A DNA stretch of 50,347 nt from Paracoccus sp. (in: a-proteobacteria) (GTDB taxonomy: Bacteria > Pseudomonadota > Alphaproteobacteria > Rhodobacterales > Rhodobacteraceae): contig NZ_JAUNTJ010000021.1 in assembly GCF_030538755.1 (NCBI RefSeq), positions 1 to 50,347 on the forward strand, read 5' to 3'. Positions within the stretch are counted from its first letter, which is position 1. Every line of letters starts with the position of its first letter. The notes under the pieces are model-generated. The model saw only the letters and a list, made by a program, of their open reading frames with translations, was not told the origin of the DNA and ran no database searches. The translations under genes and the position numbers were made by a program. Of this stretch, positions 1 to 31,043 are shown in pieces.

Positions 1-130
1 ACACAATCAAAACCCGCATCCGAAGCGACAGTGACAACAAAACCTCGCCATCCAACCCACGCGACTGATGCAAAACAGCCGCGCGGCGGAAAAGGGGAAT
101 CGGCTTTTTGCCTTCCTCTTGATCGCTCAT
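1..130 (-). CDS. HlyD-family secretion adaptor, N-terminal fragment (module 1, cut by window edge)
   Basis: Only the first 43 codons are inside the window; the gene runs off base 1. It begins MSDQEEGKK and then reads PLFRRAAVLHQSRGLDGEV, followed by the start of a membrane segment (LRMRVLIV). That stretch is identical in protein to the complete HlyD homologue at 29763-31043. By family, HlyD proteins are periplasmic adaptors that join a type I ABC exporter to an outer-membrane channel. Here the gene lies 94 bases downstream of four double-glycine peptide genes on the same strand, so it probably serves their export. A weak ribosome site (AGGGATGG) precedes the ATG. A C39 exporter probably follows beyond the window, by analogy with module 2. 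Confidence 0.85.
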   Translation of the reverse strand, partial: MSDQEEGKKPIPLFRRAAVLHQSRGLDGEVLLSLSLRMRVLIV

Positions 131-224: not shown

Positions 225-413
225 TTAGCGGCGACCGCGATTGGCCAAGTCTTTGCCAAACGTGTAACCTGCGGTAAAACCACCGCCAAATACAGCGGAA
301 AGACCGAGCCCAATGGCCCACGCTACCGGCAAAGCCGCACCCGACACCTGCTCGATCGCATCATCGTTCATTTCAACGCAAAGCGCCTGATCTTCTTTGT
401 ATTTATCATACAT
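225..413 (-). CDS. Double-glycine-leader bacteriocin-like precursor A (62 aa)
   Basis: The peptide has an acidic leader ending EMNDDAIEQVSGA, the pattern cut by C39 peptidases after a GG/GA pair. The predicted mature part (about 36 residues) is hydrophobic and glycine-rich (GLGLSAVFGGGFTAG) with a basic tail (KDLANRGRR). Glycine-zipper cores of this kind occur in class IIb (lactobin/cerein-like) bacteriocins, which act on target membranes. The start at 413 has an AAGGAA site seven bases upstream. It is last in a leftward run of peptide genes and is followed by hairpins and hlyD. Its end (GYTFGKDLA) resembles the neighbouring small membrane protein (GYIFGSDLA). Activity is unproven. Confidence 0.75.
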   Translation of the reverse strand: MYDKYKEDQALCVEMNDDAIEQVSGAALPVAWAIGLGLSAVFGGGFTAGYTFGKDLANRGRR

Positions 414-612: not shown

Positions 613-822
613 TTAGCGATTGGCGAACCAACTGGCCAGGGCCCCCGCGCCAAACCCGGCAGCACCAGTCCCGATGATAGCTCCGGCCACCTTCACGCCA
701 AGCGGGATCGCAACCCAGGCAATACCGCCCGACACTTCTTCCACGTCACCAGCACCCAGTTCGACGATAGCGTTCTCGTTCAGGTCTTCGACCAGTTTCA
801 GCTCAGTTTTTTCAGCAAACAT
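613..822 (-). CDS. Double-glycine-leader bacteriocin-like precursor B (69 aa)
   Basis: The start at 822 is fixed by a near-ideal AAAGGAGG site; the frame is open further upstream but has no such signal. The leader is long and acidic and ends GAGDVEEVSGG. The core of about 36 residues (IAWVAIPLGVKVAGAIIGTG onward) is rich in Gly and Ala with several GxxxG spacings and ends SWFANR. Such GxxxG helices are typical of two-peptide class IIb bacteriocins, so A and B may be partners. It lies in the same leftward run as C and D upstream and the small membrane protein downstream (20-base gap). Confidence 0.78.
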   Translation of the reverse strand: MFAEKTELKLVEDLNENAIVELGAGDVEEVSGGIAWVAIPLGVKVAGAIIGTGAAGFGAGALASWFANR

Positions 823-881: not shown

Positions 882-1043
882 TCAGCGTGCGCGGAGCGCA
901 GCCCAAGCTGCACGCAGAATTTGATATGGGATTATGGGCACGATAAAGCGCACACCACCGGAAACATCTTCGACCTGCCGGTCATTCAGCGCAACGACAG
1001 AACTTTCGTCCATGTGATGCGCCAGCATTTCTTTCCGCTGCAT
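882..1043 (-). CDS. Double-glycine-leader short cationic peptide precursor C (53 aa)
   Basis: The leader ends VVALNDRQVEDVSGG and the predicted mature peptide is only 23 residues. It is hydrophobic with two prolines (FIVPIIPYQ) and ends in a basic amphipathic stretch (RAAWAALRAR). It resembles peptide D directly upstream in length, proline placement and the (L/R)AAW motif, so the two look like a duplicated pair. The ATG at 1043 follows a GAGGGG sequence; an in-frame ATG at 1028 is the alternative start and leaves leader and core unchanged. The spacing to D is 10 bases, so they are probably translated together. Confidence 0.68.
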   Translation of the reverse strand: MQRKEMLAHHMDESSVVALNDRQVEDVSGGVRFIVPIIPYQILRAAWAALRAR

Positions 1044-1053
1044 GCTGCACCCC

Positions 1054-1188
1054 TCAGCGCTTGAGTTTACCGGCCAGCCAGGCAGCAAGGCGAACCACAA
1101 TCGGGTTCGGCACGACAGGGCGGATAATGCACCCACCCGAAACCTGATCCAGTTCCTTCTCGTTCAGTTCTTTCATATCAGTATTCAT
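1054..1188 (-). CDS. Double-glycine-leader short cationic peptide precursor D (44 aa)
   Basis: This gene is shorter than usual annotation cut-offs. It starts at 1188 after a strong AGGAGG ribosome site and encodes a textbook leader, MKELNEKELDQVSGG. A 25-residue mature region follows: CIIRPVVPNPIVVRLAAW and then a lysine/arginine tail (GKLKR). The leader is nearly the same as that of peptide F at 31161-31388 (KELSEQELDQVAGG), which ties the two modules together. The first mature residue would be the only cysteine. It is the first gene of the leftward peptide run and sets its promoter upstream, within 1189-1523. Confidence 0.75.
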   Translation of the reverse strand: MNTDMKELNEKELDQVSGGCIIRPVVPNPIVVRLAAWLAGKLKR

Positions 1189-1523
1189 CACAGTCCTCCT
1201 ATGGATGATTTTGGTTACGCCGAAAATCTTTCGACATCTTCATCAAACCACAACATCGCACATCTGAAAATCAGGACAGATAGCTTAAAAGATAGAACAC
1301 AGGGGCTAAACACACGCGGTTTTTCGCCGATCACACATCCAAAAGGCATGCGCCTCGATTCGAATCATCGCAAGGCTAAACATAACCCCCGCTTTTTCGA
1401 CCCACACAAATGCGGGGGCCACATCCCGCCCCATCTGATGGGCGGTTATTCACACAGGCGATTTCGGAACAGGCTTTCACCGTTACCATCAGATCGCGCC
1501 CGGAACCGGAGGAGACCGAAGCC
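1189..1523. promoter_or_regulatory. Divergent intergenic region between peptide run and LuxR regulator 1
   Basis: This 335-base stretch has no gene and must hold the promoters for the leftward peptides and the rightward regulator. It is AT-richer than its surroundings. Two copies of GGCTAAACA (1304-1312 and 1374-1382), 70 bases apart, are each followed by a CGC-N(0-1)-TTTTTCG motif. A similar TTTTTCG motif and a GACTAAAC copy lie upstream of regulator 2 (about 31475-31575). An imperfect inverted repeat (CCGCC to GGCGG, 1428-1444) is nearer the regulator start. Operator function is inferred from repetition only. Confidence 0.45.
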
Positions 1524-1919
1524 ATGACCGCCGATCATATGCAGGACATCAAAACCAGAATTATCGTCACCAATGCCAATCCGGCCTATCAGGACGATAT
1601 GCGCCACATTATCCGGCAGCTTAACCCCGGCGCGGATATCGTCATCATGACGGCGCCGCCCTCACCCGAATCACCACAGACGACAACGCCGGACAATCCG
1701 CTGCAAAGACTGTCGGTGCGGCAGAAAACCGTGCTGAAACTGATCGTAGAAGGGCGCACGAACAAGGATATTGCGCGCGACCTGGCCATTTCGCCGTCCA
1801 CCGTGCGCGTTCATGTTTCCGCCGTGCTGCGCGTGCTGGGGGTCAGTTCGCGCACGGCGGCTGCGGTGATGGCCGCGGGTGCGATGACCACCGCTGCCGC
1901 GCGAATCGCTGCGGAATAG
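1524..1919 (+). CDS. Short LuxR/NarL-type regulator 1 with truncated, Asp-less receiver (131 aa)
   Basis: The C-terminal half is a GerE/LuxR helix-turn-helix: RLSVRQKTVLKLIVEGRTNK, then [20 protein letters not shown]. The N-terminal 40 residues read TRIIVTNANPAYQDDMRHII, like strand 1 and helix 1 of a NarL receiver. However, the acidic pair normally in that position is replaced by NAN, and the rest of the receiver, with its phosphorylated Asp, is missing. It therefore cannot be an ordinary phospho-switch. The start at 1524 follows GGAGGAG. A close relative lies at 31678-32079. It is divergent from the peptide run and 118 bases before the graspetide gene, so it probably controls both. Confidence 0.8.
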   Translation: MTADHMQDIKTRIIVTNANPAYQDDMRHIIRQLNPGADIVIMTAPPSPESPQTTTPDNPLQRLSVRQKTVLKLIVEGRTNKDIARDLAISPSTVRVHVSAVLRVLGVSSRTAAAVMAAGAMTTAAARIAAE

Positions 1920-2037: not shown

Positions 2038-2262
2038 ATGACGAAAGAAACCAATGACATCCGCGCGCTCTCGCCACAGGAATGCGATCAGGTCGGCGGC
2101 GCGCTGCGCGGCTCTGGCTGGGCCACGACCCTGGCCGTCGGCGAAGAGGACGGCGGCTGGCGCGGCCCGATCATGACCACCATGGCCATCGGCGAAGAGG
2201 ATTCGGGCCGCCAGACCCACATCAAACTGCCGCTGGATGCGGCGTTTCACAGCCGCGCCTGA
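2038..2262 (+). CDS. Plesiocin-like graspetide precursor with two TTxxxxEE repeats (74 aa)
   Basis: The core holds TTLAVGEED (residues 30-38) and TTMAIGEED (47-55), two exact matches to TTxxxxEE. In plesiocin (group 2 graspetides) an ATP-grasp enzyme joins the two Thr hydroxyls and two Glu carboxyls of each repeat as esters, giving hairpin-like bicycles. An ATP-grasp gene follows 62 bases later. Unlike a bare graspetide leader, the N-terminus reads ALSPQECDQVGGA, matching the double-glycine leaders of peptides D and F, so a C39 peptidase probably cleaves after residue 21. The start at 2038 has AAGAAAGG upstream. The class is assigned from motif plus neighbour; the modification is inferred. 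Confidence 0.85.
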   Translation: MTKETNDIRALSPQECDQVGGALRGSGWATTLAVGEEDGGWRGPIMTTMAIGEEDSGRQTHIKLPLDAAFHSRA

Positions 2263-2277
2263 TCTGGCGCACAGAGC

Positions 2278-2299
2278 GGGGCACCTTGGCGGGTGCCCC
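2278..2299 (+). terminator. GC-rich hairpin between graspetide precursor and ATP-grasp gene
   Basis: GGGGCACC and GGTGCCCC form a perfect 8-bp stem around a 6-base loop, 15 bases after the precursor stop. There is no T-run. It may be a partial terminator or an RNA-stabilising structure that keeps precursor levels above enzyme levels. Confidence 0.55.
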
Positions 2300-2324
2300 G
2301 GCCATAATCTGAAAGGGGGGTCAG

Positions 2325-3167
2325 ATGATCTTGATGACAGGCGGACAGGGCGACCCCAACATGGCGGTTCTGGTCAACCGGCTGCACCAGCGCGGGATTG
2401 ATTATCACGATCTGCTGCTGGGGCCGGACAGCAATTTTCATATTAATATCGACATTCAGGAAAACAGTTTTTCGATAGATGGCAATGCCATTTCCCCAAC
2501 CGGATTTTTCGGTCGCCATGATGTATTTCTATATCAAACTGCTGACCCCGAACTTGCCCAGACAGCGGCCCTGAACTGGTATCAGGCGATTCGCGGCTGG
2601 GTCAGCGCACAGCCCTCCATCCGTATTTTCAACCGGCATACGCATTTGCGGGAAAACAACAAAATTGAAAACCTTCTGCTTGCGCAGCAGATCGGCCTGC
2701 CGGTTCCGCAAACGCGCGTTATGACCGATTTTTCCGGCCTTTCCGCATATGATACCCTGATTCAAAAGCCCGTCGCAGGCGGAGAATATACGGCCCTGAT
2801 CGCAGACCTGCCGCAGGGGGCGCATTATCCGCGCTTTGTTCAGCGGCGGCTGAACCGGCCTGAACTGCGGGTCTATCGGATCGGTGATGCGGTCATGGGG
2901 TTCTGGCTGAATTCGCCCGATCTTGATTACCGGCGCGCCCAGACGGCGGAACTGACCGTCGCCGAAGTGCCCTGCGATCTGGCGGATGGTCTGGTCGCGC
3001 TATGTGACCGGCTGGAACTGGACTTCGCCGCAGCCGATTTCATGGCCGACGACGCGGGCGAACTGCTGTTTCTAGAGGTAAACAGCCAGCCGATGTTTGC
3101 CGCCTTCGACCGTGTGGCCCAAGGGCTGTTGTGCGACGCGATCATCGACCATTTACAGGCGGGCTGA
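2325..3167 (+). CDS. ATP-grasp peptide ligase (graspetide synthetase, MvdD/PsnB-like), 280 aa
   Basis: By family and neighbour this enzyme phosphorylates Glu side chains of the precursor with ATP and closes ester links to Thr. The N-terminal part (GGQGDPNMAVLVNRLHQRGI) matches the pre-ATP-grasp fold, and IENLLLAQQIGLPVPQT is the typical entry to the ATP-binding half. LIQKPVAGGEY holds the ATP-site lysine region. RPELRVYRIGD and the closing DAGELLFLEVNSQP (Glu and Asn metal/ATP ligands) complete the fold. It is somewhat shorter than microviridin ligases. The start at 2325 follows AAAGGGGGG. The hairpin-forming spacer links it to the precursor. A D-Ala-ligase-like amino-acid ligase is less likely given the TTxxxxEE substrate next door. 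Confidence 0.85.
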   Translation: MILMTGGQGDPNMAVLVNRLHQRGIDYHDLLLGPDSNFHINIDIQENSFSIDGNAISPTGFFGRHDVFLYQTADPELAQTAALNWYQAIRGWVSAQPSIRIFNRHTHLRENNKIENLLLAQQIGLPVPQTRVMTDFSGLSAYDTLIQKPVAGGEYTALIADLPQGAHYPRFVQRRLNRPELRVYRIGDAVMGFWLNSPDLDYRRAQTAELTVAEVPCDLADGLVALCDRLELDFAAADFMADDAGELLFLEVNSQPMFAAFDRVAQGLLCDAIIDHLQAG

Positions 3168-22726: not shown

Positions 22727-25700
22727 TCAGGCCAGCAGCAGCGGGTTTTCATAATCGGTCAGGAAGGTCAGGTTATCCACCGTCACACCGGCACCGCGCA
22801 CATAGATCGCATCATGCGCGCCCGACGGATCGTTCAGATAGACCACGACCTGCGCCCCCGCCTGCTGGACCGAGGCGACGCCGACCCCAGAGCCAAGCGC
22901 GATGGCATCGACGCCGGTTTCGTAATCCATGATCGTCGCCCGTTCGCGCATCCCGTTCAGGGCGGCATCGCCAAAGAAGAACACATCCGCCCCGGCACCG
23001 CCGGTCAGCACGTCGAAATTGCCGCCCGCGCCGACGATCAGATCATCGCCATCGGTGCCGGTCAGGTTGTCGCGCCCTGCGGTGCCGACGATCAGGTTCA
23101 GCGCCGGTTCGGGCAGTTCGTCGATGACGGTATCTTCGCGCCAGGTCAGGTTCTGGATGCGGTCATCGCTGCCATAGCCGCCATCGGCCTTGTCATAGGC
23201 GGTGTCGGGCGTGGCAAAATTCGCGGCCAGATATTCGGCAAAGGCATCCTGTTCGGTGCCGTTATCGGCAAAAGTCGCCGCGCCGCTGCGGTCGCCCGCC
23301 ATCGCCTGCGCCAGATCGACACGATCAATGCCTTGGTGCTGCGGGAAGGGATAGCCGTCGCCACCATCGGCCATAAAGCCAAGCGTGACGATGCGCACCG
23401 GACCATCGGCATTGCCGGCCAGCTCGCCACCGATCACCAGCACATCCAGATCGCGGCCATCGGCATCGGTGATCGCCGCGCTGACGATGCGATCCCCCGC
23501 CGGACGCGACGGATCAAAGCTGAACTGGATGCCCGAGACCTGCGCAAACTGCCCCGCCGCCGCCGGAGCCGCCGCGACGGCATGTTCCAGCACCGCGACC
23601 AGTTCGGCGCGGGTGACGGTTATCAGCGACAGATCGTTGTTGAACGCCAGCGCGGTCTGAATATCGGCCTGACTGATACCGCCCTGCGGTTTGACGACAT
23701 TGCCCTCGCTGTCCAGGATTTCGCCGTTGGGCAGGCGCTGGTAATCGGTCGCCCCGGCCGGAACGGTGATTTCCCCGATAGATGCCCGGATGCCGCCGCC
23801 GTTCTTGATCGACACCGTAACCGTTTCATCGAACGCCTGCGCATAGGCAAGGTTCGCATCCGCCGTCAGGTTGCCAAGATTGGTTTCCTGCGTGCGCACG
23901 CCATCGGGGTTGCCATCCTCGGCCACGCCGGAACGGTTGCCGTTCAGATAGACGCTGGACACGCCGAACACATTGCTTTGGGTGGCGATGATATGGCCCT
24001 CGATCGCATCGACGATAGCCTGAATTTCCGGGTCGGCCATATCCTGCGCGCCCAGATCGGCCACGCCCTGATCGTCGGTGGCATAGGCCCCCGACACCGT
24101 GGCGTCATAGCTGTCGGGGATGATCCGGCCATCGGCGTCGAAATCCAGCACCAGACGGCCGACGTATTTATAGTTGCCATCGGTGTTGACCACGGCGGTC
24201 GTGTGACCATCAGCGCCGGTGACAAGGATCGGATACGGACCCTGCGCCACATCGCCGTCAATCGCGCGGTCGGTTTCATCCATCAGCCGCGTGTTCGAGC
24301 CGCCCGCGATGATGACATCCACATCCGTCAGCCGCGAGGCCAGCTCCAGCTCGATGTTCAGCACCTGCATATGGGTTTGCAGAACGATCTTGTTCAGGCC
24401 GGGGTTGTCGGCCAGCAGGCTGTCCACCTCGGCCTGAATGATCGCGGCCAGCGCGTCCAGTTCGGCGGCGGTCGGCGTGGTGCCCTGCCAATAGGGCGAG
24501 ATGGTCACATCGCCCGAAGACGAAATCCGCGCCAGCGTCGGCGTGGTCGCCCCGATGATGCCGATCTGTTCGCCCTGGTTTTCCACCACCACCGACGAAG
24601 TGATGCTGCGCGGCATCGGGGCCTGACCGCCCTCGACCGCCAGACCGGCCATATAGGGATCGGTCGTCACATCCAGATTGACCGACAGATAGGGCATGTC
24701 GGTGCCGGTGAACGCCTGCCCCGCCAGCGTGCTGCCCGTCAGCACGTCGAAATTGCCGCTGACGGTGCCGCCGATCAGCCCGGCCAGTGCCGCCGTGCCC
24801 TTGTCGAATTCGTGGTTGCCAAGGGTGATGGCGGCAAAGCCCAGCTCGTTCTGGATCTGGATGTCGGCGATCCCGCCCGCGCCGAACAGCGCCTCGGACG
24901 CATCGAAGAACACGCCGGGAATGAACGCATCGCCCGAGGACAGCCGGATCGTCCAGTCGGCCACGCCCTGCGATTCCAGCGCGTTCATCACCGCCGAGGC
25001 ATTGGGCGCATAGCGAATGGACGAACCATTGCCTTCCTGATCGGCCAGATGCAGGATTTCCAGCGTATAGGTCATCGGCGCGGTGCCGAAATCCATCCCG
25101 ACGACAATCGGATCATGGTCCGAGGCGCGATAGATGTCGGCCGTCATCAGCGAACCATCGCGGCCGAAATCCAGATTGTAATCGAACGCATCCGCTTCGT
25201 CGGCATTGATGGGCACATAGCTGGCCCCGGTGACAAAGCCCGTCAGCGGCGCGGTGCCAAAGGCATAATCCAGCGTGCCGGTCATGCCGTCGAACACATA
25301 GCTGATCCCCTGACCATCGAACATCGCGCCCAGATCGGTCAGATCGTCATCGGTGCCGATAATGCCATCCGCGCCCGCGATCAGGTTCTGGATCGCGTCC
25401 TCCATCCGGTAGGCGTTGAAATCGCCCAGAACCAGCACCTTGTCTTCGCCGGTGCCAGTGGGGTCGCTGGAAATCCATTCGGCCAGCGCGATGGTGGCAT
25501 TGGCGCGGATCGTGGCGCTGTGGCCCTGCCCGTCGCCCTGATCGCTGTCACCCATGGCCGCCGAGCCTTTGGATTTCAGGTGGTTCACCACGGCGGTGAA
25601 ACTTTCGCCGCTGGCCTTTTCGGTGAAGGTCTGCGCCATCGCCGGGCGCTGAACGCCGGTGGTCGGGAAACGCGCATCCACCGATTCATCCAGATAGGCC

Positions 25701-27556
25701 ACATCGCCGTTCAGGCTGATGGTTTCATGGTTGTAGATAAAGGCGTTCTTGATCGCGTCACCGCCGACCGGACCGCCCTGCACATTCAACATCGGCCCGG
25801 CATCGACATAGGCCCAGGTGCCGCCCGCCGCATTCAGCGCCGCCGTCAGCGCCATCAGCGAGGCAGACCCCGACGGGTCGTTCTCGATTTCCAGCAGGCC
25901 GACGACATCGGCCCCAAGGCTGTTGATGGCGGCGACGATCTTGGCCTCTTGCCGTTCGAACTCGGCCAGACTATCGGCGCCGCGCGGCGACAGGTTGTTC
26001 GCCGGGCCGGTGGTGCCATTAAGGGTGGTGAAATAGTTCAGCACGTTGAACGCCGCCACCTTGACGGTGCCGCCCACATCCGGCGCGCTGTCGGGGCGGG
26101 GATTGTTCTGGATCAGGTCGCCATCGCCGGGCAGGTGGATGCGGTATTCGGGTTCCTCGCTGCTGGCGGCGCTGTCATGGGAAAAGGACAGAACCCCGGT
26201 CAGCCCGCGATAGGCATCGCCCATGCGGAACTCATCGCCCGCGCGCAGCACGCCATCCTCGCCCAGAAACGGCACCAGCAGTTCCGCCGGGTTCTGCGCA
26301 TTCGACCCGTCGTCGATCACCAGCGACCGCGCGGCGACCTGTTTCAGAAATTCCTGATACCCCTCGACGCTGGGGGCATTGGTCTGGGTAAAGGTCGGAA
26401 TCCGCCCGTCCGAGGTCAGCCGCATGGTGCCGAACCGATCCAGCTGGAACAGCTCGCTGACGGTCATATCCTGCGGGATCGTGACCAGCATCCCTTCATA
26501 CATTTCCAGATTGGCGACGTAATCGCCCTTGGAATCCAGCAGAACAGAGGCGGTCGGGAATTCGATCACCGCCGCCGTGGGCAGCGGATTGCCACTGGAA
26601 TCGACGCTGACATCATCGGCGGTGATGCGGGTTTCACCGCCCACCTCGGCCACCCGGCCCTGAACCGTGACCAGATCGCCAACAGCCACCGGCGCCGATG
26701 ACGCGATGAACACCCCTTCCGAGGAATAGGGGTTGTCATCGGCATCGCGGTCTTCTTCCTGAATATAGAACCCGCCCAGACCGGGCAGAACCTGCGTGAC
26801 GATGGCCTGCACGCGCACCTGTTCGTTCAGCATCGGGCTTTCATCGGCGGCACCGGGCACGCCGACCAGCGTGCCATCGGCCAGATTGGTCTCGCCCTGC
26901 ACCTCGTGGATCCTGACCGACTGATAGGCATCGGGGTCAACGGCATAACTGCCCGCGCGCGGATTGTTGATCTCGGCGCTGTTGTTGAAATCGGCAAAGG
27001 TGAAATCCGTCGCCTGCCCGGTGGATACGCCGTCCTGCACCCGGATCACACCGGCAGGCAGGAACGCCCCCTCTGGCCCGACGACCGGCGCATCGAAGTG
27101 GAAATATTCGGCCCCCTCGCCATCGCTGACACCGATGGCATCCACCGCCGTCAAGGCGTCGGTCACGCGATTGCCGCTGATCCCGGCGGTCGGCACCAGC
27201 GCGATGGTATAGCTGGAGTTTTCGATGAAATTATCGGCAAAGGTCGCATTGGCGGTCACGCCATAGGTGGTCTGCGCCAAAGCGTTGGCGATCAGGAAAA
27301 AGCCGTTATCCCCGATCACATGTTCGGCGGTGAAATCGAACCGGGCGTCGATCATGCCGTTCTGGGCGATATTGTCTGATTCCACCACGATCAGGCTTAG
27401 CCCCGCCAGCGACTGACCGGGCGCGCCGATCAGCTCCACGAACTCGCTGTCCGGGCCGACGGTTGATCCCAACACCTTGTTAATCAACAAGGATTGTTCG
27501 GCCAGGGCATTCAGCGGATTAACGTTCAGGTCAGCGGGGTTGATCTGGATGGTCAT
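22727..27556 (-). CDS. Giant secreted nuclease/5'-nucleotidase with RTX repeats (1609 aa)
   Basis: Domains in order: a lamin-tail-like N-terminus (about 25-215), an OB-like segment, and an ExeM/NucH endonuclease-exonuclease-phosphatase domain (about 495-825; VKVAAFNVLNYF, VGLLEIEND, LVLGDFNAY, ASDHDPIVVG). A metallophosphatase (830-1180; AITLGNHEFDKG) and a 5'-nucleotidase C-terminal domain (NGGGIRASIG) follow, then RTX-like calcium repeats (about 1487-1528; DNLTGTDGDDLI). There is no signal peptide, so type I secretion by the C-terminal signal is expected. In the phosphatase the DxH metal motif reads LADQEGN, and the late GxHxH is GGSNT, so metal binding may be altered. It probably scavenges phosphate from extracellular DNA. 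It starts 74 bases after the C39 exporter. Confidence 0.9.
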   Translation of the reverse strand: MTIQINPADLNVNPLNALAEQSLLINKVLGSTVGPDSEFVELIGAPGQSLAGLSLIVVESDNIAQNGMIDARFDFTAEHVIGDNGFFLIANALAQTTYGVTANATFADNFIENSSYTIALVPTAGISGNRVTDALTAVDAIGVSDGEGAEYFHFDAPVVGPEGAFLPAGVIRVQDGVSTGQATDFTFADFNNSAEINNPRAGSYAVDPDAYQSVRIHEVQGETNLADGTLVGVPGAADESPMLNEQVRVQAIVTQVLPGLGGFYIQEEDRDADDNPYSSEGVFIASSAPVAVGDLVTVQGRVAEVGGETRITADDVSVDSSGNPLPTAAVIEFPTASVLLDSKGDYVANLEMYEGMLVTIPQDMTVSELFQLDRFGTMRLTSDGRIPTFTQTNAPSVEGYQEFLKQVAARSLVIDDGSNAQNPAELLVPFLGEDGVLRAGDEFRMGDAYRGLTGVLSFSHDSAASSEEPEYRIHLPGDGDLIQNNPRPDSAPDVGGTVKVAAFNVLNYFTTLNGTTGPANNLSPRGADSLAEFERQEAKIVAAINSLGADVVGLLEIENDPSGSASLMALTAALNAAGGTWAYVDAGPMLNVQGGPVGGDAIKNAFIYNHETISLNGDVAYLDESVDARFPTTGVQRPAMAQTFTEKASGESFTAVVNHLKSKGSAAMGDSDQGDGQGHSATIRANATIALAEWISSDPTGTGEDKVLVLGDFNAYRMEDAIQNLIAGADGIIGTDDDLTDLGAMFDGQGISYVFDGMTGTLDYAFGTAPLTGFVTGASYVPINADEADAFDYNLDFGRDGSLMTADIYRASDHDPIVVGMDFGTAPMTYTLEILHLADQEGNGSSIRYAPNASAVMNALESQGVADWTIRLSSGDAFIPGVFFDASEALFGAGGIADIQIQNELGFAAITLGNHEFDKGTAALAGLIGGTVSGNFDVLTGSTLAGQAFTGTDMPYLSVNLDVTTDPYMAGLAVEGGQAPMPRSITSSVVVENQGEQIGIIGATTPTLARISSSGDVTISPYWQGTTPTAAELDALAAIIQAEVDSLLADNPGLNKIVLQTHMQVLNIELELASRLTDVDVIIAGGSNTRLMDETDRAIDGDVAQGPYPILVTGADGHTTAVVNTDGNYKYVGRLVLDFDADGRIIPDSYDATVSGAYATDDQGVADLGAQDMADPEIQAIVDAIEGHIIATQSNVFGVSSVYLNGNRSGVAEDGNPDGVRTQETNLGNLTADANLAYAQAFDETVTVSIKNGGGIRASIGEITVPAGATDYQRLPNGEILDSEGNVVKPQGGISQADIQTALAFNNDLSLITVTRAELVAVLEHAVAAAPAAAGQFAQVSGIQFSFDPSRPAGDRIVSAAITDADGRDLDVLVIGGELAGNADGPVRIVTLGFMADGGDGYPFPQHQGIDRVDLAQAMAGDRSGAATFADNGTEQDAFAEYLAANFATPDTAYDKADGGYGSDDRIQNLTWREDTVIDELPEPALNLIVGTAGRDNLTGTDGDDLIVGAGGNFDVLTGGAGADVFFFGDAALNGMRERATIMDYETGVDAIALGSGVGVASVQQAGAQVVVYLNDPSGAHDAIYVRGAGVTVDNLTFLTDYENPLLLA

Positions 27557-27630: not shown

Positions 27631-29766
27631 TCACCCGACTTTATGTATATTCTTATGTTTATTTTGTATTTCGGTTATTTTTGCGTTTTGGATGCGGATG
27701 TTTCGTTTAGCCCTGTTGATGAGGGCTGGTCTGTGGGCGATGATGATGCGGGTTATGGGCAGTTGGGCGATCAGGTCTGCGATGGCGCTTTCGGTCTGTT
27801 CGTCCAGGTTGGCGGTGCCCTCGTCCAGCAGCAGCAGGCGCGGCTGGCGGTAAAGGGCGCGGGCCAGCAGCACGCGCTGGCGCTGGCCGCCCGACAGGGC
27901 CGAGCCCATATCGCCCACCAGCGACAGGTATTGCATCGGCATCCGCAGGATGTCCTCGTGGATCTGGGCGGCGGCGGCGGCGGTGGCCACGCGCTCCATA
28001 TCCATGTCGGGGTCGAAGAAGGCGATGTTATCCGCGATCGAGCCGGACAGCAGCTGGTCATCCTGCGCCACCACGCCGATCTGGCTGCGCCAGGCGCGCC
28101 ACAGTTCCGGCGTGGCGGGCTGGCCGTCCAGCAGGATCTGCCCCGATTCCGGCGCGTTCACCCCCAAAAGCAGCTTGGACAGCGTGGTCTTGCCCCCGCC
28201 CGAGGGGCCGGTGATCGCCACGAAATCCCCCGCCTCGATGTCCAGCGACACGTCATCCAGCACCAGCGGGCTGGCATCGCCATAGCGGAACGACACGCCG
28301 CGCACCGAAATCGCGCCCTGAACGTCGATCATCCGCGCCGGGGCGCCGCTGTCGCGGATGTCGGGTTCCGCCGTCACGATGTCGGACAGGCGTTCCAGAT
28401 GCAGCCGCAGCAGCCGGAACTGCATCACCTCGCCCACCAGCGACAGCGCCCGGTCGCTGAAGGTCTGCCGGAACGACAGGAACGCCATCAGCATCCCCAC
28501 CGAAAACCCCTGCGCATCCAGGATCATCACCGCGCCCAGATAGATCACCAGCACGGTCTGGATGCCGATCACCGCGCTTTGCAGAAACGACAGGGTGATT
28601 TCATATTTGCCGACCCGGACCGAACTGTTGATGACCGCGGCATAGCGGCTGCGCCATTTGCCCTCGCGCCCGGTTTCCCCGCCCATCAGCCGGATGGTGG
28701 GCATGGCGCGCACGGTTTCGATCAGATGCGACTGTTCGGCAGCCATGTTGACGATATTGTCCTCGGTCGCGGCGCGGGTGACGGGGTAAAAGGCAAAGCC
28801 CAGTCCCAGCACGATCAGCAGCGAGGCGACCACCACCGTCCCCAACAGCGGCGAATACAGAAACAGGATCGCCGCCGCGATCACCGCCATCAGCCCGTCC
28901 ACCATGGCCGAGATCATCCCCCGCGTCAGCGCGTCCTGGATGGCGTTGGTCGATTCGATCCGTGACATGATGTCGCCGACGTGGCGTTTCTCGAAAAACG
29001 ACACCGGCAGGCGGATCATGTGGCGCACGATATTGCCCACGATCTGGAACGACATCATCGAGCCAAGCAGCCGCAAGACCCAGTTGCGCAGCGCCTCGAG
29101 CCCCGCATGCAGCAGCGTCAGCGCCCCAAAGCCAAGCGCCAGCACCACCAGCAGGTCGCGATCGGATCGCCCGATCGCCTCGTCCACCACCAGCTGGATG
29201 TGAAACGGCAGCGCGAAGGTGGCGATCTGGAACACCAGCGACAGCGCCAGCACCTGAAAGATCGCCGCCCCCATCCCCTGCGTCCGCGACCACAGGCTGG
29301 ACAGCCTGACCGACACCCGCGCCGTGGCCTTGCGGAAATCGCCCGCCGGGGTCAGTTCCAGCACCACCCCGGTGAAATGGTTCGACAGCTCCGCCATCGA
29401 CAGCTTGCGCGCGCCCCGCGCCGGGTCGTGGATCACCGCCCCGCGCCGGCTGATGGATTTGAGCACCACGAAATGGTTCAGATCCCAGTGCAGGATCGCC
29501 GGCAGCCGCACCTGCCCCAGCGCATCCAGCCCCACCCGCAAGGCGCGCGGCGCCAGCGACAACTGTTCGGCCAGCTGCATCAGATGCCGCAGCGTCGCCC
29601 CGGTCAGCGACAGCGAAAACCGCTGCCGCAACCCGTTCAGATCAATGTCATGGCCGTAATAGCGGCCCACCATCGCCATACAGGCCAGCCCGCATTCCGC
29701 CGCCTCAGCGGCGCGGATTTCCGGCAGGCGGCGCAGCCCGGAAAAGTTCAGATCGGTAATGCTCAT
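27631..29766 (-). CDS. C39-peptidase-containing bacteriocin ABC exporter (711 aa)
   Basis: This exporter cuts double-glycine leaders and secretes the mature peptides. The N-terminal C39 peptidase has catalytic Cys25 in AAECGLACMAMVG, His98 in HWDLNHFVVLK and Asp114 in VIHDPARG. Six membrane spans (about 160-440) and an ABC domain follow: Walker A GPSGGGKTT, signature LSGGQRQRVLLAR, Walker B LLLLDEGTANLDE, switch His IIIAHRP. The ATG at 29766 overlaps the hlyD stop (ATGA), fixing the start. Substrates should be peptide F and, with the missing module 1 exporter as alternative, A-E. The last 20 codons are AT-rich and unlike the rest. Confidence 0.95.
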   Translation of the reverse strand: MSITDLNFSGLRRLPEIRAAEAAECGLACMAMVGRYYGHDIDLNGLRQRFSLSLTGATLRHLMQLAEQLSLAPRALRVGLDALGQVRLPAILHWDLNHFVVLKSISRRGAVIHDPARGARKLSMAELSNHFTGVVLELTPAGDFRKATARVSVRLSSLWSRTQGMGAAIFQVLALSLVFQIATFALPFHIQLVVDEAIGRSDRDLLVVLALGFGALTLLHAGLEALRNWVLRLLGSMMSFQIVGNIVRHMIRLPVSFFEKRHVGDIMSRIESTNAIQDALTRGMISAMVDGLMAVIAAAILFLYSPLLGTVVVASLLIVLGLGFAFYPVTRAATEDNIVNMAAEQSHLIETVRAMPTIRLMGGETGREGKWRSRYAAVINSSVRVGKYEITLSFLQSAVIGIQTVLVIYLGAVMILDAQGFSVGMLMAFLSFRQTFSDRALSLVGEVMQFRLLRLHLERLSDIVTAEPDIRDSGAPARMIDVQGAISVRGVSFRYGDASPLVLDDVSLDIEAGDFVAITGPSGGGKTTLSKLLLGVNAPESGQILLDGQPATPELWRAWRSQIGVVAQDDQLLSGSIADNIAFFDPDMDMERVATAAAAAQIHEDILRMPMQYLSLVGDMGSALSGGQRQRVLLARALYRQPRLLLLDEGTANLDEQTESAIADLIAQLPITRIIIAHRPALINRAKRNIRIQNAKITEIQNKHKNIHKVG

Positions 29767-31043
29767 CCCAGACGCCCCACAGCATAGATCGGATCCAGAA
29801 GCCATTCGACCAGCGTGCGCCGGTCGATCACGATACCCGCGGTCAGCAACATGCCGGGCTGGACCTGAATGTCCTGCCCGTAGGCGCGCACCTGATCGCT
29901 GGCCAGTTCCACCTTGACCCGGAACACCGGCTCCTGGATCTCCAGCCCCGGTATCGCCACCTCGGACGGGGCCAGCACCGTGCGCGACACGCTGCGCACC
30001 ACGCCGCGGGCGGTGCCGAATTTTTGATACGGGAAGGCCTGATACATCAGCTGCACCTCTTGCCCGGCCTTGATGAACCCGGCCGAGCGCGACGGCACAT
30101 AAAGTTCCGCCTCAAGCGACGAGCCTTCGGGCGTCAGCACCGCCACCACCGATTGCGGCGCCACCGTCTGGCCGCGCGACACCGGCACCGCCACCACCCG
30201 GCCCGCCACCGTGGCCCCGGCGTGATAGACGTTCTGGGTTTCCATCTCGGTGCCCTGCAAGGCCAGTTGCGCCTGCCCGGCACTGGCGCGGGCATCCGCC
30301 GCCCGGATCGACAGCGGCAGGCTGCGCAACTGCGCGTCGATCTCGCTGATCTGGCGGTCCATCGCCAGCACGCTGCTGCGCACGCCCGACAGTTCCTGCT
30401 GCGCCACCAGCACCGCCATCTCGCTTTCCTCGACGGTCTTGCGGCTGGCGATGCCGCGCCCGGCCATCGCCCGCACCCGTTCGGCATTCGCCTCGACCAG
30501 CGCCAGCCGTTCGGCGGTGGTCTCGATCCGGGCGCGGCCCTGATCGCGTTCGGCCACCAGCCCCTCGCGCTGGGTTTTGAGGTTGGTCTCGTCGGCGACC
30601 AGCATCTCGCGCTCGGCCTCGGCCTGCGCGCGCGCCGCGTCGATCTGGGCGTGCAATTGCGTCAGCAGCGCCTGCCCGGCACTGCCCCCGGCCAGATCCG
30701 CCGACAGCCGCAGCTCTGCCAGAGACTGCCCGGCCGAAACCGTATCGCCCTCGGAGACCGTCAGGCTCTGGATCACCCCGCCACGCGGCGCCGTCACCCG
30801 GATCAACCCACCCTCGGGCACAACCCAGCCCGCAACCGTCTCGATCCGCGCATAAGACGCCGTGGACGCAAACGCCAGGGCCCCCACAACGACACAAACC
30901 GCCAACACAATCAAAACCCGCATCCGAAGCGACAGTGACAACAAAACCTCGCCATCCAAACCACGTGACTGATGCAAAACAGCCGCGCGACGGAAAAGGG
31001 GCGTGGGGGATTCGTTATCATCGCTGGGACGCTGATCGGTCAT
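29763..31043 (-). CDS. HlyD-family secretion adaptor (426 aa)
   Basis: A periplasmic adaptor for the C39 exporter. A short cytoplasmic start is followed by one membrane span (MRVLIVLAVCVVVGALAFAS), a lipoyl-like half (GWVVPEGGLIRVTAPRGGVI), a long coiled coil (about 110-220, rich in Ala, Glu, Arg), and a second lipoyl/beta-barrel part ending VRVKVE-like repeats and GMLLTAGIVIDRRTLVEWLL. Its first 43 residues match the partial protein at 1-130 except for the extreme N-terminus. It is translationally coupled to the ABC gene and lies 117 bases after peptide F with two hairpins between. No outer-membrane TolC partner is in the window. Confidence 0.92.
   Translation of the reverse strand: MTDQRPSDDNESPTPLFRRAAVLHQSRGLDGEVLLSLSLRMRVLIVLAVCVVVGALAFASTASYARIETVAGWVVPEGGLIRVTAPRGGVIQSLTVSEGDTVSAGQSLAELRLSADLAGGSAGQALLTQLHAQIDAARAQAEAEREMLVADETNLKTQREGLVAERDQGRARIETTAERLALVEANAERVRAMAGRGIASRKTVEESEMAVLVAQQELSGVRSSVLAMDRQISEIDAQLRSLPLSIRAADARASAGQAQLALQGTEMETQNVYHAGATVAGRVVAVPVSRGQTVAPQSVVAVLTPEGSSLEAELYVPSRSAGFIKAGQEVQLMYQAFPYQKFGTARGVVRSVSRTVLAPSEVAIPGLEIQEPVFRVKVELASDQVRAYGQDIQVQPGMLLTAGIVIDRRTLVEWLLDPIYAVGRLG

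Follow-up and report, generated by a model that had tools for sequence, protein, structure and literature searches.

A predicted plesiocin-type graspetide locus in Paracoccus sp. and the spread of its ligase family among bacteria and marine phage contigs

The Paracoccus sp. contig analysed here (NZ_JAUNTJ010000021.1; 'the window' is the whole stretch of 50,347 nucleotides, an entire contig of a 3.0 Mb assembly that is 86.8% complete) carries a gene pair that is very probably a graspetide locus of the plesiocin kind, in which a short precursor would receive two nested esters in each of its repeat units before leader removal and export through a C39-type transporter. The pair and its elements are as follows.

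2038..2262, plus strand: graspetide precursor, 74 amino acids (open reading frame with two TTxxxxEE units)
2038..2100, plus strand: N-terminal leader, residues 1–21, ending VGG (fits the C39-type export-leader pattern)
2125..2148, plus strand: core repeat 1, TTLAVGEE (unit listing)
2176..2199, plus strand: core repeat 2, TTMAIGEE (unit listing)
2233..2250, plus strand: C-terminal motif LDAAFH, of the form L[DE]xx[FL]H (listed in 12/12 precursors of the clade)
2278..2299, plus strand: stable RNA hairpin between precursor and ligase (RNA folding)
2325..3167, plus strand: predicted ATP-grasp ester ligase, PsnB-like, 280 amino acids (profile, fold and alignment)

Both genes were found as an earlier sequence-only reading had described them: the precursor (translation MTKETNDIRALSPQECDQVGGALRGSGWATTLAVGEEDGGWRGPIMTTMAIGEEDSGRQTHIKLPLDAAFHSRA) contains exactly two TTxxxxEE units, at residues 30–37 and 47–54, the LEVN end of the ATP-grasp gene falls at residues 250–253, and a purine-rich, ribosome-site-like sequence precedes the start of each open reading frame. 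The pair of units is beyond chance: two units arose in 2 of 200,000 shuffles of the precursor residues, 60 Markov-resampled windows held a mean of 0.05 single units and zero pairs, and all six frames of the window contain no TTxxxxEE other than these two. The pairing is also conserved, as a TTxxxxEE peptide lies just upstream of the ligase in all 13 relatives found in genome contigs (Paracoccus, Halomonas, Rhizobiales and others). Across 17 precursors, Gly occupies position 6 in 56/56 units, a position that the search pattern left free. One relative, L002 (ligase 79% identical), retains the precursor peptide with both units; its codons differ from those of the window at 12, 12 and 20 first, second and third positions (of the changed codons, 13 are synonymous and 22 non-synonymous), so that the codon evidence from this pair is only modest. 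The interval between precursor and ligase folds well in the window and in L002 alike (z −2.5 and −3.5), and the hairpin at 2278..2299 is a possible step-down in expression between the two genes.

In the mechanism that we propose, the ATP-grasp ligase would phosphorylate the Glu side chains in each TTxxxGEE unit. Displacement of the phosphate by Thr hydroxyls paired with them would give two nested esters per unit, the product being two hairpin-like bicycles formed with the loss of up to four waters. After modification the leader, ending GG(A), would be removed, export would proceed via a C39-peptidase ATP-binding cassette (ABC) exporter and HlyD adaptor common to the microcin-like neighbours, and regulation would probably lie with the adjacent LuxR-type gene. 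The two-hairpin graspetide that the sequence-only reading had anticipated is supported: the genes, the motif, the ligase kinship, the conserved precursor–ligase pairing and the association of the GG-type clade with C39 genes are observed, and the bonds and their number, the cleavage site, the exporter involved, the regulation and the activity are predicted. Protease inhibition is the most likely activity of the product, in line with what is said of the graspetides characterised by 2022 (Makarova 2022).

The first alternative is a graspetide with other connectivity or fewer bonds (a single ester in each unit, or a link involving the tail Asp of LDAAFH), which we regard as unlikely. It would fit the conserved Asp/Glu in the tail of this clade, the single intact unit in the precursors of L005 and L006, and the group 2 precursor Gra-5, which lost one water only and is without one donor/acceptor set relative to plesiocin (PMC9576775); Gra-5 also weighs on the proposed number of bonds, its loss of a single water leaving a four-water loss not assured. 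The window precursor, by contrast, has full TT and EE in both units, as in plesiocin-type repeats, and PsnB installs two lactones on each PsnA2 repeat (PMC9484694).

The closest solved relative of the ligase is PsnB, by sequence profile and by fold; in a single-sequence search PsnB ties with PruB (7.1e-8 and 6.6e-8). At E ≤ 1e-5 the family profile matched six PDB sequences (PsnB, AMdnB, CdnC, PruB, MdnB and MdnC). One tree joins the family with PsnB (support 99/97, on long branches). Residues K148, R182, D238, E251 and N253 are invariant among the aligned relatives. R182, which is invariant in one set of 16 ligases and in another of 7, aligns with PsnB chain position 233, that is, residue 213 if the entry numbering is offset by 20, as two comparisons together suggest; we take R213, presumably a functional residue of PsnB, to be its counterpart. 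The kinship of the ATP-grasp enzyme with known graspetide ligases assigns the locus to graspetide biosynthesis, as does the short precursor gene beside it with conserved donor (Thr/Ser/Lys) and acceptor (Asp/Glu) residues, and the TTxxxxEE core repeats together with PsnB as the nearest solved ligase assign it to group 2. That the enzyme is instead a RimK-like ligase that attaches amino acids to some protein or small compound, with the TTxxxGEE peptide an unmodified neighbour, is very improbable, because no RimK-type chain is among the six profile matches and the peptide accompanies the ligase in 13/13 relatives. RimK-like function was rejected on sequence, not on fold.

Upstream of the pair lie a regulator gene and four genes for small peptides.

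1524..1919, plus strand: LuxR-type helix–turn–helix regulator (GerE domain, E 1.6e-18)
1054..1191, minus strand: microcin-like peptide, leader LNEKELDQVSGG (TIGR01847, above cut-off)
882..1043, minus strand: microcin-like peptide, leader LNDRQVEDVSGG (TIGR03949, below cut-off)
613..822, minus strand: microcin-like peptide, leader AGDVEEVSGG (TIGR03949, below cut-off)
225..413, minus strand: class IIb bacteriocin-like peptide, leader ending VSGA (TIGR03949, above cut-off)

The precursor N-terminus appears to be a double-glycine-type export leader: it agrees with the consensus ending GG or GA and resembles the leaders of the four adjacent microcin-like peptides, which likewise end GG or GA (two of these peptides score above the cut-off of a named model). 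Ahead of GG the precursor is one residue shorter than its neighbours unless A22 is the cleavage residue, and cleavage is predicted after G21, or after A22 by register with the neighbouring peptides. By calculation the whole precursor has a monoisotopic mass of 7892.82 (7820.77 less four waters) and the part behind G21 one of 5619.77 (5547.73 less four waters); removal of A22 (71.04) and of four waters (72.04) are 1 Da apart. A plain class II microcin that merely sits beside a ligase of no relevance to it, as the four adjacent peptides with similar leaders might suggest, is the least credible reading of all, given the repeat pattern beyond chance and the repeats kept with the ligase in precursors without a GG-type leader (L012–L014 and L016). 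The minus strand of L002 (1–1700) also bears an array of microcin-like GG peptides, six by pattern, beside its graspetide genes.

The ligase family is rare and scattered (the following counts include already-known genomes). Matches were present in 15/292 genomes of the host order at E ≤ 1e-3 (6 of them below 1e-30), in 5/385 of the host class at 1e-15, in 11/250 of the Halomonas family (4 strong), in 4/250 Lysobacterales (1 strong) and in 5/249 of the order Rhizobiales (1 strong), and further genome sets at 1e-30 gave 1/54, 2/198 and 1/199; 72,556 plasmid records gave zero. The 17 precursors hold one to eight units each and differ widely at the N-terminus. Eleven have a GG-type N-terminus (an AG/GAG variant in L009 and L010), that of L004 is masked, those of L012 and L014 have short basic N-termini, and those of L013 and L016 have only six residues ahead of the first unit. 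In-frame stops three codons before the ATG in L016 and 14 codons before it in L013 indicate that no long leader is hidden there. The L031 precursor carries a weak Nif11-like stretch (17.6 bits, below the 23.8 cut-off), and in L017 and L019 a stretch of roughly 100–150 residues without a Pfam match precedes the repeats. The L019 relative (2395–3081, minus strand) has KTxxxFEE repeats, which suggests that one Lys–Glu amide may replace an ester.

Export would depend on genes of the following kinds, two of which belong to a second locus in the window.

2..130, minus strand: HlyD-type adaptor, first 43 codons, cut by the contig end (domain match)
27631..29805, minus strand: C39 peptidase ABC exporter (Peptidase_C39 4e-32; best NCBIfam model TIGR03796, under cut-off)
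29763..31043, minus strand: HlyD-family adaptor of the second locus (domain match)

The C39-ABC gene, a candidate exporter of the graspetide, is the only C39 match in the assembled host genome and lies on the same contig as the precursor, in a second locus (27631 to ~32046) with a LuxR-type gene, a GG peptide and HlyD. Because bases 1–97 of the window are 97% identical to 30905–31001 (within the second HlyD) and the L002 contig likewise ends inside an HlyD gene, an assembly break at a repeated exporter is suggested. C39 and HlyD genes lie near the precursor–ligase pair in L003, L007, L009, L010, L011 and L066, with the order HlyD, C39-ABC, precursor, ligase in L009 and L010. The ~10 kb around the pair gave no C39-type exporter in L005, L006 or L008 (the sole hit in the flank of L008 is to the ABC part, at 26.5%), and in these genomes a C39 gene is on a separate contig. 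The GG peptide of the second locus has a Cys-rich tail, GCDTGCDTGC. Adjoining the C39-ABC gene, 22727–27556 (minus strand) encodes a 1609-residue protein that combines an endonuclease/phosphatase domain, a 5'-nucleotidase C-terminal domain and a weak RTX-type C-terminus, perhaps a type I secretion cargo.

Besides Gra-5, several points weigh against the plesiocin-type reading. The ligase is only ~23% identical to PsnB and scores 53.9 bits against a cut-off of 350 for TIGR04187, which is one named ligase subfamily in NCBIfam and not the whole graspetide ligase class (five relatives score 54.2–74.1 bits), and a Pfam scan of the ligase gave no family above cut-off. The position-6 Gly is not universal, in view of the KTxxxFEE units of L019 and of TTMAIPEN in two phage units. 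No complete exporter adjoins the pair in the assembly, the contig ending inside an HlyD copy, and the sole C39 gene of the host assembly is 24 kb off, in the second locus. Its C39 domain (~29692–29712, minus strand) keeps the Cys and has Ala six residues before it, where active C39 peptidases usually carry Gln; the L009 domain likewise has Ala there. The genome of L002, a metagenome-assembled genome (MAG), gave no C39 match. In favour of C39 export, such genes are present in 10/11 genomes of the GG-type clade versus 1/7 with other precursor types, by a test that ignores shared ancestry and includes one row, L004, with a masked N-terminus (Fisher p 0.0025; 0.0037 without L004). The sole exception in the GG clade is G672, a MAG, and G680 was left out of the count, though its L010 locus carries C39.

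A further matter is what guides the ligase. The motif L[DE]xx[FL]H follows the last unit in 12/12 clade precursors (three near-duplicate pairs, 9 distinct) and in 0/5 multi-repeat ones; tail shuffling gives a chance of 0.001–0.01 per tail, a descriptive statistic, as the pattern was picked after the tails had been seen and the rows are related. The motif could be a guide for the ligase or part of the product. A conserved hydrophobic leader motif was rejected, the pattern Phhx(1,2)h being present in 0/12 precursors; in Makarova 2022 this motif occurs in about half of precursors, and is so not strictly defining, GG motifs also occur in about half, leaders track ligase branches and leader motifs are taken as activating the ligase. 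Leader types follow ligase clades in our trees as well, which makes the trees compatible with leader–ligase co-evolution; the leaderless precursors are the stronger argument. As the unit stays constant while N-termini run from an export leader to nothing, the simplest account would place sufficient recognition in the core, with the leader matched to the exporter. We tentatively suggest, as a possibility short of probable, that the ligase family is guided by the TTxxxGEE-type unit, with the N-terminus a swappable export or carrier part, and that the phage module staples a large phage protein; L[DE]xx[FL]H may perhaps help as a natural follower in this clade. Clade-specific leaders could instead bind the ligase, or the guide could lie elsewhere in leaderless precursors. 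A literature search, with subscription papers mostly outside it, gave, among the matches listed, no description of graspetide substrates that lack a leader or come from phages, and none pairing Paracoccus or Halomonas with 'graspetide'.

The phage form came from two scans of viral contigs, the first giving 23 loci (21 ligase relatives of ~250 amino acids, 29–33% identical, and two fragments) and the second, with the L071 ligase as query, 8 loci. On the marine phage contigs of L071/L095, L073, L075/L096 and L097–L101, a short ligase lies directly before a gp25-like repeat protein. In 8/8 loci the next gene behind the ligase codes for a protein carrying 4–7 units by a loose pattern (for example, KTMAIGED and TTMAVGEE; unit type [T/K]TxAxGE[D/E]), some contigs being close to each other and two repeat proteins being cut by the contig or locus end. 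The eight phage ligases placed in the tree form a single clade (99/96), and all eight repeat proteins are homologues of HMO-2011 phage gp25. In six of the eight, the repeats are flanked by a stretch that matches gp25 from residue 1 to ~65–108 and by another that matches it from residue ~69–86 onward; in L097 and L098 the match is confined to the C-terminal half and the units begin right behind the Met. In 8 isolates examined, out of 27 matching records, such units were present in 0/8 gp25-like homologues, from phages without a ligase match; 3 of these homologues match both sides of the repeat stretch, and in 5 the match starts at query residue 318. Their annotation is no more than hypothetical protein, and they lie near tail genes. 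No ligase of either phage type was found in 50,697 phage isolate records, and P0002 matched one unannotated phage record (25.6% identity). At the other phage ligase loci (L070, L072, L087, L091 and L102–L113), the adjacent genes look by eye like those for DNA polymerase and related functions. Within the flanks examined, a repeat protein was not found in 20/23 loci of the first scan or in the 16 phage loci with wider flanks (two from one contig).

In summary, the locus appears from its sequence to be a good new plesiocin-type member, which would give Paracoccus an exported peptide with two hairpins, made by a ligase above no Pfam or NCBIfam cut-off, and the variety of leaders in the family together with the phage form raises interest beyond the locus itself. 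If the unit-guided reading is true, recognition by graspetide ligases would be directly testable with near-leaderless natural precursors and a repeat-bearing phage protein, the phage enzyme would serve to staple a phage protein and not to make a peptide natural product, and a compact stapling tag for proteins might become possible.

Compared with plesiocin (PsnA2/PsnB), the locus shares TTxxxxEE repeats, a single ATP-grasp ligase and PsnB as the nearest solved ligase, and differs in ligase length (280 residues versus ~312 in solved chains) and in unit number, which is two in this precursor and ranges from one to eight among relatives, whereas plesiocin is tetravalent (PMC12291112). Also set against plesiocin are the microcin-like export leader, presumably a difference, the C-terminal L[DE]xx[FL]H and the leaderless state of some relatives; in the PDB set, repeat-rich relatives as queries gave nothing meaningful resembling PsnA2, and the window peptide gave nothing. 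The updated RODEO survey describes NHLM-type transporters as frequent companions of group 2 and long repeat-bearing precursors as frequent in groups 34 and 35; the present family may already be one of its groups 1–43 (PMC13097080). Leader dependence has been shown for the ligase ThfB, whose substrate fuscimiditide had its leader moved to the C-terminus in an engineered precursor, and lasso peptides are noted to include natural precursors without a leader (PMC13003496). ThfB works there with a guide placed behind the core by engineering, whereas the conserved C-terminal motif here is natural and its guide role putative. Class II microcins and GG-leader bacteriocins with C39-ABC and HlyD have the same leader type and a probable export route in common with the Paracoccus peptide but, unlike them, the core here is predicted to be ester cross-linked.
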